Shown here piece after piece: positions 12,369 through 53,389 of a stretch of DNA of 64,000 nucleotides. The notes under the pieces were generated by a model. That model was not told the DNA's origin. It saw nothing but the letters and a program-made list of their open reading frames with translations, and ran no database searches. Position 1 is the stretch's first letter, and every line of letters begins with the position of its first letter. This stretch comes from Taibaiella lutea (GTDB lineage Bacteria > Bacteroidota > Bacteroidia > Chitinophagales > Chitinophagaceae). The position numbers and the translations under genes were made by a program. The DNA lies in contig NZ_VWSH01000004.1 in the NCBI RefSeq assembly GCF_008629695.1, forward strand, positions 620,001 through 684,000, given 5' to 3'.

Positions 12369-12443
12369 GGAGGATATAGCTCAGTTGGTTAGAGCGTCGG
12401 TTTGTGGTTCCGAAGGTCGTGGGTTCGAGACCCATTATCCTCC
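12369..12443 (+). tRNA. tRNA-His (anticodon GTG), probable phage attachment site
   Basis: Complete cloverleaf. G-1 is at 12369, the acceptor gaggata pairs with tatcctc (12436-12442) and C73 is at 12443. The anticodon loop reads tttgtggtt with GTG, and the T-arm contains gggttcgagaccc. The extra G-1 opposite C73 is the hallmark of tRNA-His. CCA is not encoded. The integrase gene follows within 100 bp, so the 3' half of this tRNA is the likely attachment core (inference; the other end is not in the window). Confidence 0.96.
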
Positions 12444-12444
12444 C

Positions 12445-12537: not shown

Positions 12538-13752
12538 ATGATACAGCTAACCAATGGGTGTACCTGCACCGAATTAAAAATTTATCCCAAAAATTGGAAG
12601 AACAAAAATGCTTCTACAGCAAAGGACTGGTATATTTATTACACTTTCCACGATCCTTTGTTCATCAACAAATATCCAACTGGTAAGCCAGTCCAAGTTA
12701 AGAAAGGATTTAATTATTTCAAAAACTTAAAGGAACGCCAAGAGGCAGTTCAGATCGTGTTTGAAGCTACAAAGCTTAAAGTAAAAGAAAAAGGCTACAA
12801 TCCAATCACGGATCAATTCATGAAAATTGAAATTGAGGAGATAATCGACTATGAAGTTCATCCTGACACTCCAATTCTTGATGCGTTGACATCTGCACTT
12901 GAAAAGAAAAAAGCAGAATTAGAACCTCACACAATTGCTGATTACAAAAGCATGATGCTGTACTTCTCTAAATCAATTATTGAATTGAGATATGATACAA
13001 TGGCAATAAAAGATATTAAACGAAGACATATTAGGATTGCCTTACAGAATTGCAATAAGTCTCCTGATAGAACAAATAAATACAGGAGCCTTATTCAGGC
13101 TCTTTTTAAGGAGTTAAATCAAATGGAAACAATTGAGACAAATCCCGTAAACGATATTGCTATTTTAAAAACCGGCCCGAAAAATAAAAGAGTTACACTT
13201 ACCCTATCACAACGCAAAGAAATAAACGAATTTCTTTATAAAGCCCATTATCCATTTTGGAGGTATATGCAAATTTTCTTCCATTCAGGAGCCAGGAGTT
13301 CAGAATTATTCAACCTGAAAATACAAGATGTAGATTTAAAAAATCAGACTTATTTAGCTAATATAAAAAAGGGTGGACAAAATAAAATTGTAGAAAAAGT
13401 CATAAAGGACATCGCTCTACCCTATTGGCATGAGTTAATATCTAAGTGTAAGGAAAATGATTACTTATTTTCTTTCGGGTTTACACCTGGAACACAACGT
13501 GCTAACACAGACAGAATAAATAAACTTTGGAAGATGTTAGTTAAAGATAATGATAAACTCGGAAGGCCGCAGGCAGATTTTTACAGTCTTAAACATACGC
13601 ACTCAACCGAAGTAGTTGATCTGATTAATAAACACCAGGCAGCTGAACACAATAGTCATACAACCACAAAAATGGTTGACACTGTATATGATGTAAGAGC
13701 TGAAGCACGAAAGGCGGAAACTGTAAAAGAGCTGAAGAATGCATTTGCCTGA
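12538..13752 (+). CDS. int: Phage tyrosine integrase
   Basis: Site-specific recombinase of 404 aa. The middle part (about 95-200) looks like an all-helical SAM-like core-binding domain. The catalytic part has the first arginine in SGARSSELF (Arg253) and the tyrosine in MVDTVYDV (Tyr384). The usual HxxRH box is replaced by YSLKHTHST near 348-356, so the second Arg is Lys and the first His is Tyr. This variant form is recalled from other Bacteroidota integrases (not checked). It lies beside tRNA-His, where it would be expected for a tRNA-targeting phage. A bidirectional terminator closes it. Confidence 0.92.
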   Translation: MIQLTNGCTCTELKIYPKNWKNKNASTAKDWYIYYTFHDPLFINKYPTGKPVQVKKGFNYFKNLKERQEAVQIVFEATKLKVKEKGYNPITDQFMKIEIEEIIDYEVHPDTPILDALTSALEKKKAELEPHTIADYKSMMLYFSKSIIELRYDTMAIKDIKRRHIRIALQNCNKSPDRTNKYRSLIQALFKELNQMETIETNPVNDIAILKTGPKNKRVTLTLSQRKEINEFLYKAHYPFWRYMQIFFHSGARSSELFNLKIQDVDLKNQTYLANIKKGGQNKIVEKVIKDIALPYWHELISKCKENDYLFSFGFTPGTQRANTDRINKLWKMLVKDNDKLGRPQADFYSLKHTHSTEVVDLINKHQAAEHNSHTTTKMVDTVYDVRAEARKAETVKELKNAFA

Positions 13753-15565: not shown

Positions 15566-16030
15566 ATGGAGTTTACACCAAAGGACAAGATAAAGGTCTA
15601 TCCAATATCTGTAGAGCAGAAGGCTGAGATAATGAAAATAGGTTTGTTCCGGGCAAAAGCGGGCTTTGCTTCGCCCGCCCAGGACTATGTTGTAAAGCCG
15701 TTTGAAATAACGGAACTGCTCATTCAACATCCTTCCAGTACATTTTTAATCGAATGTGAAGGTGACAGCATGGAGCCGGTCATACCTTGTTCAGCTTACC
15801 TGATAATTGACAGGTCCCTGCAGGTGAGAAACAATGATATTGTTCTGGCAGATTTGAACGGTGAGTTTAACGTAAAGTATTACACCCGCCGAGGTGATAA
15901 AGTAAAGCTTGTGCCGGCAAACCAGGCATATAAAACCGTTGAAATTCTAGACGGAATGGAATTTCAGGTATTTGGTGTAGTTGATTGGATTTTAATAAAC
16001 CCCCGTAAAGTAAATGTTCGCCCTCGTTGA
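15566..16030 (+). CDS. umuD: UmuD-like self-cleaving protease, translesion polymerase partner
   Basis: A LexA/UmuD-type serine peptidase of 154 aa. The cleavage region AGFASPAQDYV (about 32-42) matches the Cys/Ala-Gly site of UmuD. The catalytic serine is in EGDSMEP (Ser68) and the lysine in FNVKYYT (Lys104). There is no N-terminal DNA-binding domain, so it is a UmuD and not a repressor. RecA-stimulated cleavage would give the active form that works with UmuC (family knowledge). The gene overlaps umuC by 17 bp, indicating translational coupling. Confidence 0.92.
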   Translation: MEFTPKDKIKVYPISVEQKAEIMKIGLFRAKAGFASPAQDYVVKPFEITELLIQHPSSTFLIECEGDSMEPVIPCSAYLIIDRSLQVRNNDIVLADLNGEFNVKYYTRRGDKVKLVPANQAYKTVEILDGMEFQVFGVVDWILINPRKVNVRPR

Positions 16031-17273
16031 TTGCAATAACTTCTATGCCTCATGTGAGCGCCTTTTCCAGCCTAAACTGCGAAAGGTGCCTATTGTTGTG
16101 TTATCCAATAACGATGGCTGTGTTATAGCCCGCAGCAATGAAAGCAAGGCCTTGGGCATAAAGATGGGGGCATTGGCTTACGAAAACGAAGTGCTCTTTA
16201 AAGAAAATGGTGTAAGGGTTTTCAGTTCCAACTATACACTATACGGCGATATTTCTTCGCGGGTAATGGCAACATTAAATGAGTTCACACCTTCGATGGA
16301 AGTTTATTCTATTGATGAAGCTTTCCTTGACTTATCAAACATGGCAGGCGTTGACCTGAATTTATATACTCAGGAAATAAAGGATACAGTACTTCATAAT
16401 ATCGGTATCCCTACCTGCGTTGGTGCGGCGCCATCCAAAACCCTTTCCAAGTCGGCAAACCACTTTGCCAAGAAAATGACAGCGAACGGTTCTTTCTGTA
16501 TCGACTCAGAAGAAAAGCGGGAAATGGTTTTGCGCTGGCAGCCGGTCGATGATGTATGGGGCATAGGCAGGCAATACGCAATTTGGCTTATGGCAAACAA
16601 TGTCAATACAGCCTGGGAATTGGCCAATGCCAACAAAGAATGGATTAGGCAGAAAATGGGTGTGGTTGGTGTAAGACTTGTAAATGAACTTAACGGCATT
16701 TCCTGCATACCTATTGAAGAGGTACCACCGTCTAAAAAGGAAATCTGTACTTCCCGTTCGTTTAGCCATAACCTGACAGATAAGGATGAAATCCGCCAAT
16801 CAGTGGCCACACATATAACCAGATGCGCCGAAAAACTCCGGAAGCAGGGAACAGCTGCCGGCGCAATCCATGTTTTCCTACACACAAACCGGTTCAGGGA
16901 TTTGCCGCAGTATTACGGTGCCCTTACAATACCGTTGCTTACAGCAACAAACCTGACTGACGAGCTCCTGCATTATGGTATGATTGCTTTTGAACGGGCA
17001 TATAAAGAAGGCTACAGCTATAAAAAGTCCGGGGCTATTGTCCAGGATATTGTTCCCGCGAACCAAATCCAGCAATCCCTGTTTAGCAATAACCCCAACC
17101 GGGAAAAAGGTGCAGCCATCATGAAAGCATTGGACGGCATAAATGGGCGGATGGGAAAAGATACTATCAGGTATGGCGCTGCCGGCTATTCAAAGAAATG
17201 GAGGTTAAGAGCAGACATGATAAGCCCAAGGTACACTACCAACTTAAATGAAATCCTAAAGGTTAAAATATAA
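16014..17273 (+). CDS. umuC: UmuC-like Y-family DNA polymerase
   Basis: Translesion DNA polymerase (Pol V catalytic subunit type), 419 aa. It starts FALVDCNNFYASCERLF with the first metal-binding Asp, and the catalytic palm motif YSIDEAFLDLS is intact. The region VWGIGRQ is a helix-hairpin-helix site. The C-terminal little-finger and DUF4113-like end (TIRYGAAGYSKKWRLRADMISPRY) is typical of plasmid and phage UmuC proteins. Its stop codon overlaps the next start (TAATG). The phage-borne copy would raise mutagenesis or damage tolerance in the lysogen. Confidence 0.95.
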   Translation: MFALVDCNNFYASCERLFQPKLRKVPIVVLSNNDGCVIARSNESKALGIKMGALAYENEVLFKENGVRVFSSNYTLYGDISSRVMATLNEFTPSMEVYSIDEAFLDLSNMAGVDLNLYTQEIKDTVLHNIGIPTCVGAAPSKTLSKSANHFAKKMTANGSFCIDSEEKREMVLRWQPVDDVWGIGRQYAIWLMANNVNTAWELANANKEWIRQKMGVVGVRLVNELNGISCIPIEEVPPSKKEICTSRSFSHNLTDKDEIRQSVATHITRCAEKLRKQGTAAGAIHVFLHTNRFRDLPQYYGALTIPLLTATNLTDELLHYGMIAFERAYKEGYSYKKSGAIVQDIVPANQIQQSLFSNNPNREKGAAIMKALDGINGRMGKDTIRYGAAGYSKKWRLRADMISPRYTTNLNEILKVKI

Positions 17274-18004
17274 TGTGTTACCACGTATCAACACCAAAGA
17301 AAGCTAAACTTGAAGCCAAAGCAAGAGAAGAGAACCTGGTTATCCAAGGTGAGTTTGAACAATACTACCATGTTTCCGGATTCGCCCGCCCATACTTACC
17401 GGTGACTATCAATACTGAACCTACTGTAATTCAACCTGCCCAATGGAAACTTATACCGCATTGGGTGGCCAATGAAGAAGGGGCAAAGAAATACTCCAAT
17501 ACGCTTAATGCTGAATCTACCGGCATTTTTGATAAAGCTTCATACAAGCCTTATATTCAAAAGTTCCGTGGTCTTTTATGGATTGACGGTTTTTACGAAC
17601 CGCATAAAGTTGAAGGCAAAAAGGAAACTGAGAATTACTACCTATACCGGCCCAACAATGAAATATTCACATTAGGAATTGTGTATTCTCCCTGGATAAA
17701 TAAAGACACCGGAGAATTGACACATACCATTGCTGTAATCACCACACACGCAAACGAATTGCTGGCCGAGATACACAATGAAAAGAAACGCATGCCTCTC
17801 GTTATATCAGAATCGGATAGGGAGGGATGGTTGCACGCTAAAACAAGGCCTGAGATTGAATCCTTCATGCAGCCTGCAGGAAATGATTACCTGTTAGGCC
17901 ATAAAATTACCGCCCGTGTAACGAGCGGCAAGCAAGATTTTAATATACCTGAAGTACAAGAAAAAGCGCCTGAAGAAAACAAGGATAGAGGATTATTGTT
18001 TTAA
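17273..18004 (+). CDS. SRAP-domain abasic-site shielding protein (YedK/HMCES family)
   Basis: A 243-aa SRAP protein. The N-terminus MCYHVS exposes the conserved Cys2 that forms a thiazolidine crosslink with abasic sites in single-stranded DNA. Other family landmarks are WGLIP-like KLIPHW, NTLNAES (Asn and Glu), GFYEPHK and the terminal histidine-type motif RMPLVI. It is translationally coupled to umuC (1-bp overlap), so the cassette joins lesion bypass with protection of abasic sites. The C-terminal tail is charged and likely disordered. Confidence 0.92.
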   Translation: MCYHVSTPKKAKLEAKAREENLVIQGEFEQYYHVSGFARPYLPVTINTEPTVIQPAQWKLIPHWVANEEGAKKYSNTLNAESTGIFDKASYKPYIQKFRGLLWIDGFYEPHKVEGKKETENYYLYRPNNEIFTLGIVYSPWINKDTGELTHTIAVITTHANELLAEIHNEKKRMPLVISESDREGWLHAKTRPEIESFMQPAGNDYLLGHKITARVTSGKQDFNIPEVQEKAPEENKDRGLLF

Positions 18005-18098
18005 CGACATTTAAAGAATTGCCACACAACAAAATTGTGAATACGTCGTTATTGATTTAGTTATTTGTAATTTTGAAAGGCAAATTATTCCTAAATAA

Positions 18099-18171
18099 TT
18101 TGGATTATTGCTCAAACTGGATATATTTGTATCAGAAAATAAATTTTAAAATATTTTTTAAAATTTATTTT
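18099..18171 (+). promoter_or_regulatory. Promoter and 15-bp inverted repeat before the HEPN operon
   Basis: A TTTG -33 box (18099-18102), a 19-bp spacer and an exact -7 box TATATTTG (18122-18129) form the best promoter in the region. Directly downstream, at the expected start of transcription, a perfect 15-bp inverted repeat (18136-18150 with 18157-18171, arm aaaataaattttaaa) lies 27 bp before the first start codon. It could be an operator for autoregulation or a 5' hairpin. Confidence 0.65.
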
Positions 18172-18198
18172 GCCCTGACCACCATATGAATTAAGTTA

Positions 18199-18606
18199 AT
18201 GAGTGAATTCATTCAAAAAGCAGAATATAACTATTTGGCTGCCAAAAACCTTATCAATGAAAATCTTTTTGCGCCAAGTATTAAATGTAGCTACTACAGA
18301 TGTGTACAAATAATGCTACACTATTTATATGATAAAAAGGGATTCAATGATAAAACATTTTATGAATCACGAACTACCTCTCGACACGGCTCTCACGCAC
18401 ATGCAATTTATTTAACTGGTTTAGATTTAATTACGAAATGCGATCGTGGTGATTATAAGTATTTTCAGGATAAAATACAGGTTTTAAAAGCCTTAAGAGA
18501 AAAATCAGATTATAAAAATTTGCCAATATCTAAAGATGAATCAAATGATGCCCTATCTATTTCAGATTCTCTTAGAAATATATTAATTAAAACATTGAAG
18601 CTATGA
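18199..18606 (+). CDS. HEPN-domain protein, candidate RNase toxin
   Basis: An all-helical 135-aa protein with HEPN features: a first helix AEYNYLAAKNLIN, a second helix SIKCSYYRCVQIMLHYLY with the conserved aromatic pair, and the R-x4-6-H signature in RTTSRHGSHAHAI (about 58-70). HEPN proteins are often metal-independent RNases in toxin-antitoxin and defence systems. Its stop overlaps the next start (ATGA), and a SecB-like chaperone gene follows. This order fits a toxin-antitoxin-chaperone module with this protein as toxin (inference). The HEPN call rests on motif and helix pattern only. Confidence 0.65.
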   Translation: MSEFIQKAEYNYLAAKNLINENLFAPSIKCSYYRCVQIMLHYLYDKKGFNDKTFYESRTTSRHGSHAHAIYLTGLDLITKCDRGDYKYFQDKIQVLKALREKSDYKNLPISKDESNDALSISDSLRNILIKTLKL

Positions 18607-19136
18607 AAAGCCAAATAAAATCTTTCCTCCTAGAAGAATTGACAAAATTACAAAAGCAATTTTGTAACATTAAAATAAAGTATGCCTTTAATATAGCTAT
18701 TGAAGTCCATATTGTTGAAATAACTCCAGATACGGAATATCATTCAAATGATCGACTTGATGAATCTTGGTTAAATATTGCTATGGATTTTATGAAGCGT
18801 TTCCCTAATGAAGAAATTTCTTTTATAACAGACGATTCTATTTTAAAAATTAAATCACCTGAATTTGTTTTACAGCCTGAGTATAGCATGATTTTTGACT
18901 CAGCCTCATTTGACTTAATATTTGATAACTTCTCTCCGATGATTGAAAGCTCCTATGACATTATTTCTGATACCATAGAATCAACTCAAATAGTTTACGA
19001 GACAATCAATAGTTCAATTCAAAAAGAGACCAACTATTTGCCAGGAATAAAGTTACTCACAGGAATGAAAAATAAGAGTGAGAGTGGAGTGAATAATAAA
19101 CTTATTGGCAGTACTCAATATGCAATGGCGGCTTAA
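18603..19136 (+). CDS. 177-aa partner of the HEPN protein, candidate antitoxin with chaperone-dependent tail
   Basis: Not recognised as a known family. The N-terminal 70 residues look alpha/beta (KYAFNIAIEVHIVEITPD), followed by an acidic stretch and a long C-terminal part with hydrophobic patches (PGIKLLTGM, KLIGSTQYAMAA). It overlaps the HEPN gene by 4 bp and ends 9 bp before the SecB-like gene. In known chaperone-dependent modules the antitoxin has a C-terminal chaperone-addiction segment, and this tail is a candidate (inference). The tail also holds NYLPGIK, a motif shared with the small proteins encoded just downstream. Confidence 0.5.
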   Translation: MKSQIKSFLLEELTKLQKQFCNIKIKYAFNIAIEVHIVEITPDTEYHSNDRLDESWLNIAMDFMKRFPNEEISFITDDSILKIKSPEFVLQPEYSMIFDSASFDLIFDNFSPMIESSYDIISDTIESTQIVYETINSSIQKETNYLPGIKLLTGMKNKSESGVNNKLIGSTQYAMAA

Positions 19137-19145
19137 AATTACACC

Positions 19146-19589
19146 ATGACCACAAAAATCCATACCGCATCTTATAGAATTGAAGATGTAATTATCATTG
19201 AGAGCAACTTTAAAAGAGATTTATCCATTAACGATGACGATGGATCAATAAAAAATCACATAAGCCTAAAAAACTCTTCAGAAAAAGATCCAGACAATAA
19301 TAATTTCTGGATAATAACAGAAGCAAACATTGAGGGTAAACAAGGAGAGAAGTCAGTATTTTCTGCTAAAGTTGTTATTGTTGGCATTTTCGAAAAGATA
19401 GGTGAAGGTGAATTGGAAATGGAAACATTTAAAAGAATAAATGGGCCCGCTATGCTATTCCCTTTTTTACGAGAGCACATTGCAACAAATTGTGTCAAGG
19501 CTGGAATGAAAAAAATATTGCTTCCACCAATAAATTTCACTAAACAAGATGATGACGAGAGCGGTGAGAGTGAAGGTCTTCAAGATTAA
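19146..19589 (+). CDS. SecB-like chaperone
   Basis: A 147-aa SecB-fold protein. The C-terminal half follows SecB closely: a beta strand FSAKVVIVGIFEKIGE, then INGPAMLFPFLREHIA (equal to the CPNILFPYARE region of E. coli SecB), then KILLPPINF (equal to LNLAPVNF), with an acidic tail. Canonical SecB is mainly proteobacterial. SecB-like proteins elsewhere are often the chaperone of toxin-antitoxin-chaperone systems (Rv1957 in Mycobacterium tuberculosis and CmdC in E. coli CmdTAC). Here it is the third gene of the HEPN operon, closed by a strong terminator, so it most likely controls the folding of the 177-aa partner. Confidence 0.82.
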   Translation: MTTKIHTASYRIEDVIIIESNFKRDLSINDDDGSIKNHISLKNSSEKDPDNNNFWIITEANIEGKQGEKSVFSAKVVIVGIFEKIGEGELEMETFKRINGPAMLFPFLREHIATNCVKAGMKKILLPPINFTKQDDDESGESEGLQD

Positions 19590-19599
19590 TTTAAAAACG

Positions 19600-19638
19600 A
19601 AATAAAATTGCAGCAAATAAATTGCTGCAATTTTATTT
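19600..19638 (+). terminator. Intrinsic terminator ending the HEPN/SecB operon
   Basis: A perfect 17-bp stem (arm aaataaaattgcagcaa with complement 19622-19638) and T-rich 3' arm. It ends only 3 bp before the next start codon, so the following gene would need readthrough. Confidence 0.8.
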
Positions 19639-19641
19639 TAC

Positions 19642-19869
19642 ATGTCTCCTATGGAACCAATTTACAAAGAAGAGAACTCGTTGCCCGGTATCAAATCAAT
19701 AGAAATATATGAAGCTGTGATCGAAGATGATAATTCCCTTTATCCTATTAAGGTTAATCAAAAGGATTACACTCTAAGAATGAACGCTGAGGGATTCTGG
19801 AGGGTTGAAGGGCTATCTGAAGAAATGAGTGTTTACATAGGTGAGCTTGTCGAATTTCACGAATTATAA
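19642..19869 (+). CDS. Small LPGIK-family protein, 75 aa
   Basis: Not recognised outside this window. It contains NSLPGIKSIEIYEA, then YPIKVNQKDYTLRM, a Trp (FWRVEG) and VYIGELVEF near the end. The next gene, the minus-strand gene at 22606 and a remnant at 23541-23639 share this pattern: LPG/LPD near the start, tyrosine-rich beta segments, a central Trp and a final YIG-type strand. It starts 3 bp after the terminator of the chaperone operon. Function is unknown; proximity suggests a link to the HEPN operon. Confidence 0.55.
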   Translation: MSPMEPIYKEENSLPGIKSIEIYEAVIEDDNSLYPIKVNQKDYTLRMNAEGFWRVEGLSEEMSVYIGELVEFHEL

Positions 19870-19871
19870 TC

Positions 19872-20105
19872 ATGGAATATCCTCGCCTCACACTTATCAA
19901 TCAGCTGCCTGATGTAAAAATGATTGAAATATTTGCTCCTTTCGAGCAAAACAATAGAATGGTGTATCCAGTAACTGTTGACGGGCTTAAAACTACTTTT
20001 GAAAATACAGGCATTCATGCATGGACGGCAAAAGGCTTCGGCCTGGCATTTTCGCAAGAATTAATTGATTATATTGGTGCTGAAATTGAACAATTTGAAA
20101 TATAA
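19872..20105 (+). CDS. Small LPGIK-family protein, 77 aa
   Basis: A paralogue of the preceding gene, 2 bp downstream. Aligned landmarks are NQLPDVKMIEIF (against NSLPGIKSIEIY), YPVTVDGL (against YPIKVNQK), a central Trp in HAWTAKGF and DYIGAEIEQFEI at the C-terminus (against VYIGELVEFHEL). The two are probably co-transcribed. No function is known. The C-terminal end matches the remnant at 23541-23639 almost exactly. Confidence 0.55.
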   Translation: MEYPRLTLINQLPDVKMIEIFAPFEQNNRMVYPVTVDGLKTTFENTGIHAWTAKGFGLAFSQELIDYIGAEIEQFEI

Positions 20106-53255: not shown

Positions 53256-53317
53256 TGGTTTCGATTTTCGGGTTGCAAAATTGCAATATCACTACGCCAA
53301 TGGGTGTCGCTTATTAG

Positions 53318-53389
53318 AGCGGCAAGGTCGATTCGAACGCCATCTCCTGATTGGTTAATCAGGCGCTATACCAGTTAAGCTATTGCCGC
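53318..53389 (-). tRNA. Phage tRNA-Gly-like gene with an 8-base anticodon loop (AACC)
   Basis: On the minus strand the acceptor gcggcaa pairs perfectly with ttgccgc, position 73 is T, and the D and T-loop (ttcgaat) landmarks are present. The anticodon stem cctga/tcagg leaves an 8-base loop ttaaccaa. G1-C72, C2-G71, G3-C70, U73 and the CC in the anticodon are glycine identity features. In a normal tRNA-Gly the loop would be 7 bases, so the triplet has been replaced by AACC. The T-stem is imperfect (one or two mismatches), so partial decay is possible. It is transcribed with mom and the terminase genes. Confidence 0.6.

Follow-up and report, generated by a model that had tools for sequence, protein, structure and literature searches.

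A candidate toxin-antitoxin-chaperone system with a HEPN-type toxin in a Taibaiella lutea prophage, with an antitoxin tail tracking the host tmRNA tag

Among described systems, the closest to the locus studied here are the toxin-antitoxin-chaperone (TAC) systems, in particular CmdTAC (PD-T4-9) of E. coli; the papers on these and related systems, given below by PMC number, are cited from excerpts. In CmdTAC the antitoxin CmdA ends in LAA and is degraded by ClpP unless held by the chaperone CmdC; once the capsid protein of phage T4 takes CmdC away, this degradation sets in and the toxin becomes active; TAC antitoxins are described as sharing the LAA end of CmdA (PMC11618068). Both CmdTAC and MqsRAC, which have SecB-like chaperones, defend against phages (PMC9519451).

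The window analysed here, i.e. the whole stretch of 64,000 nucleotides, contains a trio of + strand open reading frames, of which genes 1 and 2 overlap by 4 bases and genes 2 and 3 are separated by 9 bases, confirming the overlapping or closely spaced arrangement described in an earlier note on this DNA. The trio and its flanking elements are:

18199-18606, + strand: gene 1, 135 aa, HEPN protein, candidate toxin
18603-19136, + strand: gene 2, 177 aa, candidate antitoxin, conserved between HEPN and SecB
19146-19589, + strand: gene 3, 147 aa, SecB-like chaperone, PF02556
18099-18129, + strand: Bacteroidota-type promoter-like match (TTTG, 19 nt, TATATTTG), by position only
18136-18171, no strand assigned: perfect inverted repeat in the leader, 16-nt arms and 4-nt spacer
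19600-19638, no strand assigned: terminator-like stem 3' of gene 3, 17-nt perfect stem and 5-nt loop

We read the trio as prophage cargo encoding a TAC system whose toxin is of the HEPN type, and assign to this reading a probability of roughly 0.7. The earlier note had proposed it as a candidate TAC, and gene order, folds, recurrence and the co-occurrence of the gene 2 tail with SecB all lend support to that proposal. The regulatory elements which it had listed fared unevenly. Regarding the shared terminator, a stem does lie 3' of gene 3, the terminator scan placing it on the minus strand; regarding the shared promoter, the motif, which we take to be that of Bacteroidota promoters, is matched 5 times in the window for 4.41 expected, so that only its position speaks for the match at 18099-18129. 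The leader repeat, noted as 15 bp, is real and has perfect 16-nt arms (18136-18151 and 18156-18171), a length reached by none of 500 dinucleotide shuffles of 18005-18198, the largest shuffled value being 11, but nothing ties it to the suggested autoregulation. The 1-kb block of lowest GC content in the window, 18001-19000 (28% GC), falls in this region. Directly after the terminator, at 19642-20105, there are two small ORFs of 75 and 77 aa, alike by eye and with no Pfam family match, the first containing LPGIK, a string also found in the gene 2 tail.

The recurrence of the trio was analysed by a scan of genome contigs, using as query an alignment of nine SecB proteins, all from HEPN-type loci, from which 80 of 119 candidate loci were kept, and by a viral scan yielding 17 loci, with one new viral contig coming from an additional HEPN scan. 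The search for the same trio in other neighbourhoods had been named beforehand as a check, and HEPN, gene 2 and SecB were found in this order in 78 of the 97 loci with distinct SecB (65/79 genome loci, 12/17 viral contigs and 1/1 other), a gene 2 relative lying beside SecB in 85 of them; since the query was drawn from the HEPN-type family, these shares are not prevalences. The median HEPN-gene 2 spacing is −4, i.e. the genes overlap. Judged by their record titles, the loci come from Bacteroidota belonging to many families, apart from three in Ignavibacteriota and one in Chlorobiota, and gene 2 profiles match 14/396 genomes of the order and 4/395 genomes of the phylum, one of them doubtfully. 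Gene 2 alone as query retrieved no relative in the genome-contig scan, and plasmids yielded none either, whether queried with the DNA or with proteins 1 and 2. SecB itself occurs in 11/395 phylum genomes, and from our reading of the neighbours all 11 lie beside toxin-antitoxin-like genes: 3 HEPN-type (the window included), 5 HigBA-like and 3 ADP-ribosyltransferase-like. A SecB tree of 105 rows rests on few columns and leaves many forks unresolved; on it the HEPN label is explained by 7 changes, versus 18.7 when shuffled. The pairwise distances of the three proteins correlate at 0.72-0.79 (76 trios; 0/2000 permutations), which could also arise from shared host phylogeny.

Some loci depart from this pattern. 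In L024 and L213, which share the same gene 2 protein, the HEPN frame is broken by an in-frame TGA, gene 2 and SecB being open and the gene 2 tail being identical to the host tag. A Planctomycetota locus (L098:3837-5270), a possible far relative of the trio, combines SecB with a weak match to HEPN and with a protein of 180 aa that ends in AKAA and goes unrecognised by the gene 2 profile. In L236:1102-2374, SecB is preceded by a 90-aa ORF and followed by an ADP-ribosyltransferase-like one, an order that is not toxin-antitoxin-chaperone.

The trio is cargo of a prophage, whose left end is defined by the following features:

12370-12444: tRNA-His, with the integrase gene alongside
12401-12444, + strand: left attachment repeat, the last 44 bases of tRNA-His
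12538-13752, + strand: integrase (PHROG integrase, 115.5 bits), adjoining tRNA-His

An exact second copy of the 44-base end of tRNA-His, absent from the first 16 kb downstream, is located further on at the window-equivalent 80107-80150. Both attachment repeats look intact, and the prophage that they delimit measures ~67.7 kb; the trio lies within it, ~5.8 kb from the left end. The window also contains genes for a portal, a head protease, a tape measure protein, a terminase and a DnaB-like helicase, and 6 of the 10 proteins tested have a PHROG match. An IMG/VR contig of 64,654 bases, which judged by its coordinates begins at the integrase, encodes a SecB 100% identical to gene 3. We also observed an SOS-type cassette beside the trio, at 15566-18004, in which genes for a UmuD-like peptidase S24, a UmuC-like polymerase (IMS) and an SRAP protein follow one another; further inside the prophage, at 53317-53389, ARAGORN reports a tRNA-like gene whose anticodon, aacc, has four bases.

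This setting bears on what a working TAC system would be for, as it could serve the maintenance of the prophage through addiction rather than phage defence. The position of the trio between the repeats agrees with such a role, as do the 12/17 viral contigs that carry it; on the other side, most other copies lie on genome contigs for which no prophage call was made here, and the two described systems with SecB-like chaperones mentioned above defend against phages. We consider addiction somewhat unlikely.

Gene 2 had been described as an unrecognised 177-aa protein and this description stands, as in profile searches it exceeds no curated family cut-off and returns sub-threshold names only; the weak names PIN_4, DUF6734 and a PHROG were rejected as below the curated cut-off. 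Its predicted organization is as follows:

18603-18878, + strand: folded domain, residues 1-92, alpha-beta-beta-alpha-beta
18879-19133, + strand: disordered tail, residues 93-177, pLDDT about 47-63 in most blocks, candidate chaperone-addiction region
19107-19133, + strand: last nine residues, GSTQYAMAA, 8/9 as in the host tmRNA tag GNTQYAMAA

A recognisable MNT protein was rejected for gene 2, as profiles give no support (no Pfam MNT match; hhalign probability 0.02 against 10 MNTs) and its conserved columns lack what we take to be the MNT catalytic motif. The modelled structure provides an MNT fold as a lead only, with KH-like as the other candidate for residues 1-92; the comparison is that of VIA-align, in which a family missing from the list may still match.

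The ssrA-like, AA-terminated end of gene 2 is a property of the family. Indeed, 81 of the 85 gene 2 proteins end in AA, the exceptions being L034 and L036 (KAS), L066 (LTV) and L065 (short frame), and on adding two relatives the figure becomes 82/87 (L020 ending in AA, L006 in CC); in the same loci, this end is found in 0/61 HEPN proteins, 0/66 SecB proteins and 5/402 mechanically defined ORFs of at least 200 aa. We compared the tails with the tags of their own hosts, taken from tmRNA genes found with Rfam RF00023 and read by ARAGORN, seven of the tags used coming from our own scan. A host tag was available for 67 of 86 gene 2 proteins, the other 19 being from 12 viral contigs and 7 genomes. 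Over positions −9 to −3 there are 175 matches between tail and own host tag, versus 125.8±6.4 with shuffled tags (0/20,000), and with ARAGORN tags only (60 rows) 156 versus 114.1±6.0 (0/20,000). When each distinct tag is represented by a single row (35 rows, 20 draws), the matches amount to 89-104 for 64.1 shuffled. When the nearest gene 2 relative with another host tag is considered, the own tag fits better in 29 cases, worse in 8 and equally in 30 (sign test p 7.5e-4), although both the host tags and gene 2 reflect phylogeny, an effect that this neighbour test removes only partly. Also, Met or Leu at −3 follows the host (15/25 versus 4/40, p 3.7e-5).

At the level of individual loci, the tail equals the host tag over all nine residues in L024, L068, L073 (host tag from our own scan), L075 and L127, the uncommon tags GERTYAMAA, GEYSYAMAA and DNTSYALAA being among these identical tails, and four more tails, including that of the window, match at 8/9 residues. 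L075 and L054, which are 48% identical over their first 100 residues, have the tails DNTSYALAA and GTNKFALAA, their host tags being DNTSYALAA and GDNNFALAA, the latter from our own scan. Altogether 15/67 tails match at least 7/9 tag residues and 52/67 match fewer than seven; among the 15, another host's tag fits better in L032, L063 and L102 and ties in L055 and L074. That in most tails the likeness to the tag is partial counts against the TAC reading, and so do the SecB-adjacent exceptions noted above (L034, L036, L066 and L006).

The AA end is present in 1 of the 8 other TAC antitoxins of the census, and according to our reading of the printed primers the four antitoxins cloned in PMC5105189 all lack it. 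We further observed a CmdT-like toxin, a short antitoxin and SecB in two Bacteroidota, at L007:628-1893 (G043) and L005:594-1845 (G060). In G043, where the toxin scores 51.2 bits to PD-T4-9_A, the unrelated antitoxin ends in GNTQYAMAA, exactly the host tag, and the HEPN-type one in this genome in KKDYTMAA; the system of G060 ends in PKLAA, the host tag from our own scan being GERQFAMAA.

These observations might be accounted for if the tail were a generic ClpX signal, composed of a hydrophobic residue followed by Ala-Ala, with the likeness to the host tag arising from shared ancestry and convergence on the ssrA consensus. Many tails do share just AA plus Leu, Met or Tyr with the tag, close relatives tie in 30/67 cases, and the published CmdA ends in LAA. 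However, the five exact nine-residue tails, uncommon tags included, the result per distinct tag and the dependence of Met or Leu at −3 on the host argue against this explanation, which we regard as unlikely.

A further comparison is offered by eight gene 2 proteins retrieved in the search of the order without an adjacent SecB (in G362, G368, G422, G355 and G287, and three tandem copies in G293), which are related, come from few genera and form a small and not independent sample. A HEPN match lies beside 7 of the 8, split into two ORFs in two cases, and none was found beside the gene 2 of L018 (G355). PF02556 has no match in 5 of these 6 genomes, G355 having one on another contig. The SecB-less proteins are 105-128 aa long (two with the start moved downstream), versus a median of 157 (121-218) beside SecB; they lack the C-terminal extension, and the AA end is found in 0/8 of them versus 81/85 with SecB. 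The tandem copies (L021-L023, contig 12 of G293, about 553-556 kb) form three HEPN-gene 2 pairs, one HEPN copy being split into two ORFs. HEPN-profile matches with neither gene 2 nor SecB nearby were observed in L216, L217, L230 and L233.

Gene 1 passes the Pfam HEPN profile PF05168 just above its cut-off (22.7 bits for 22) and a HEPN fold was found by profile and fold comparison, which bears out its earlier assignment as HEPN-type. Its closest solved relatives, both by fold and by sequence profile, are AF_0298 (2hsb) and PDB 9xbd/9xbc; the literature search found no relevant paper on 9xbd/9xbc, nor on the function of 9xbd, and from the printed alignments 9xbc carries F in place of the Y in the RNRSDY of 9xbd. 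The canonical R-x4-6-H active-site motif that the earlier note had read in gene 1 is absent: the candidate motif formed by R58 or R62 with H66 was rejected, as neither arginine is conserved among 75-76 relatives. Instead, gene 1 has R100-x3-D104-Y105 with H66 upstream, and K7, H66, R100, D104 and Y105 are conserved in the family. The PF05168 group has been described as varying from the canonical motif (PMC3710099), and gene 1 probably encodes an RNase from the AF_0298-like group of HEPN proteins, its site being formed by H66, R100, D104 and Y105. The absence of R-x4-6-H would also be compatible with a non-catalytic HEPN protein that does harm by binding RNA or ribosomes, the circuit being otherwise unchanged, and non-catalytic HEPN toxins are allowed for by Anantharaman et al. 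2013 (PMC3710099). Yet for AF_0298-like proteins that have a second His of this kind the same source suggests an alternative site, and H66, R100, D104 and Y105 are each retained at 93-100% across the 76 trios, making a non-catalytic toxin improbable.

Taken as a TAC system with a HEPN toxin, the trio could operate as follows. Residues 1-92 of gene 2 would bind the putatively toxic gene 1 protein, and the disordered tail would render gene 2 dependent on gene 3. As the tail is a near-copy of the host tmRNA (ssrA) tag, the unprotected antitoxin should be a target of ClpXP, being read like a tmRNA-tagged protein and then destroyed, a fate that the SecB-like chaperone would block by covering the tail. 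Drawing the chaperone away would expose the tag, remove the antitoxin and free the HEPN enzyme, and by analogy with CmdTAC the trigger in phage defence might be the capsid protein of an infecting phage. The near-copy of the host's waste tag thus suggests a way in which the toxin could be released.

A speculative and doubtful extension is that an antitoxin with the host tmRNA tag is wired into ribosome rescue, the load on the chaperone being weighed against the load on ClpXP. At rest the SecB-like chaperone would mask the tag, and its loss to phage proteins would unmask it; mRNA cleavage by the HEPN protein would stall ribosomes and lead tmRNA to tag many unfinished proteins, which would compete for ClpXP and spare newly made antitoxin, as a built-in brake. 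On moving, the system would need re-tuning to the tag of each new host, and the antitoxin domain could derive from an MNT antitoxin whose catalytic activity was lost.

The roles could also be reversed or shared, with gene 2 being harmful and HEPN its partner, or both forming one effector that SecB keeps folded. There is a precedent in CmdT, which has no great toxicity by itself and depends on CmdA for its accumulation (PMC11445053, PMC11618068), but in known TAC systems it is the antitoxin that is disordered, ends in a degron and is linked to the chaperone, and the enzyme-like invariant residues belong to HEPN, so we hold this to be very improbable.

Gene 3 is the sole SecB match in this 4.27-Mb genome and, as had been claimed, a clear SecB-like chaperone, scoring 54 bits to Pfam PF02556 for a cut-off of 26 and 48.5 bits to the PADLOC CmdC model PD-T4-9_C, a likeness common to other TAC chaperones. 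That it is an ordinary export SecB placed by accident beside two unrelated genes is hardly credible, as although it passes the general Pfam cut-off it falls far under every NCBIfam SecB equivalog cut-off (best 48.9 bits versus 143), SecB is rare in the phylum and in all 11 cases beside toxin-antitoxin-like genes, and the trio distances are correlated.

If the reading of the trio as a TAC system with a HEPN toxin is true, a HEPN toxin joins the TAC systems, as one of three TAC types in the Bacteroidota census. The host-matched tag would offer a direct test of the turnover of a TAC antitoxin and of the adaptation of a mobile system to its host, and the SecB-less relatives a natural comparison for the rise of chaperone dependence.

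In respect to known systems, the trio shares with CmdTAC the toxin-antitoxin-chaperone order and the SecB-like chaperone, gene 3 matching its CmdC models, and both antitoxins have a long unstructured C-terminus ending in AA. However, the antitoxin domain of CmdTAC is unrelated to gene 2 by sequence, the excerpts of PMC11618068 and PMC9519451 state no match to a host tag, and the CmdTAC toxin is an ADP-ribosyltransferase, whereas gene 1 is a HEPN protein that matched no PADLOC model at E 1 and does not belong to the CmdT family. The TAC systems of the HigBA, HicAB and MqsRA kind (PMC5105189) have the same three-gene order but different toxin and antitoxin families. The expectation of a toxin class different from those of HigBAC and CmdTAC is supported, and in the open-licence literature neither a TAC system with a HEPN toxin nor an antitoxin tail tracking the host tag was found described. 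In contrast to the HEPN-MNT (type VII) pairs, which have R-x4-H-x-Y, gene 1 has R-x3-D-Y, its partner has neither an MNT profile match nor the catalytic motif, and a chaperone is added. AF_0298 (2hsb) and 9xbd/9xbc have the same R..DY and upstream H as gene 1. To our knowledge none of them is linked to a chaperone. Finally, in the integration-dependent immunity of mycobacteriophages an ssrA-like C-terminal tag also acts as a stability switch on phage proteins, but there the tag is on a repressor and is removed by integration (PMC8092301), whereas in the trio it would be covered by the chaperone.
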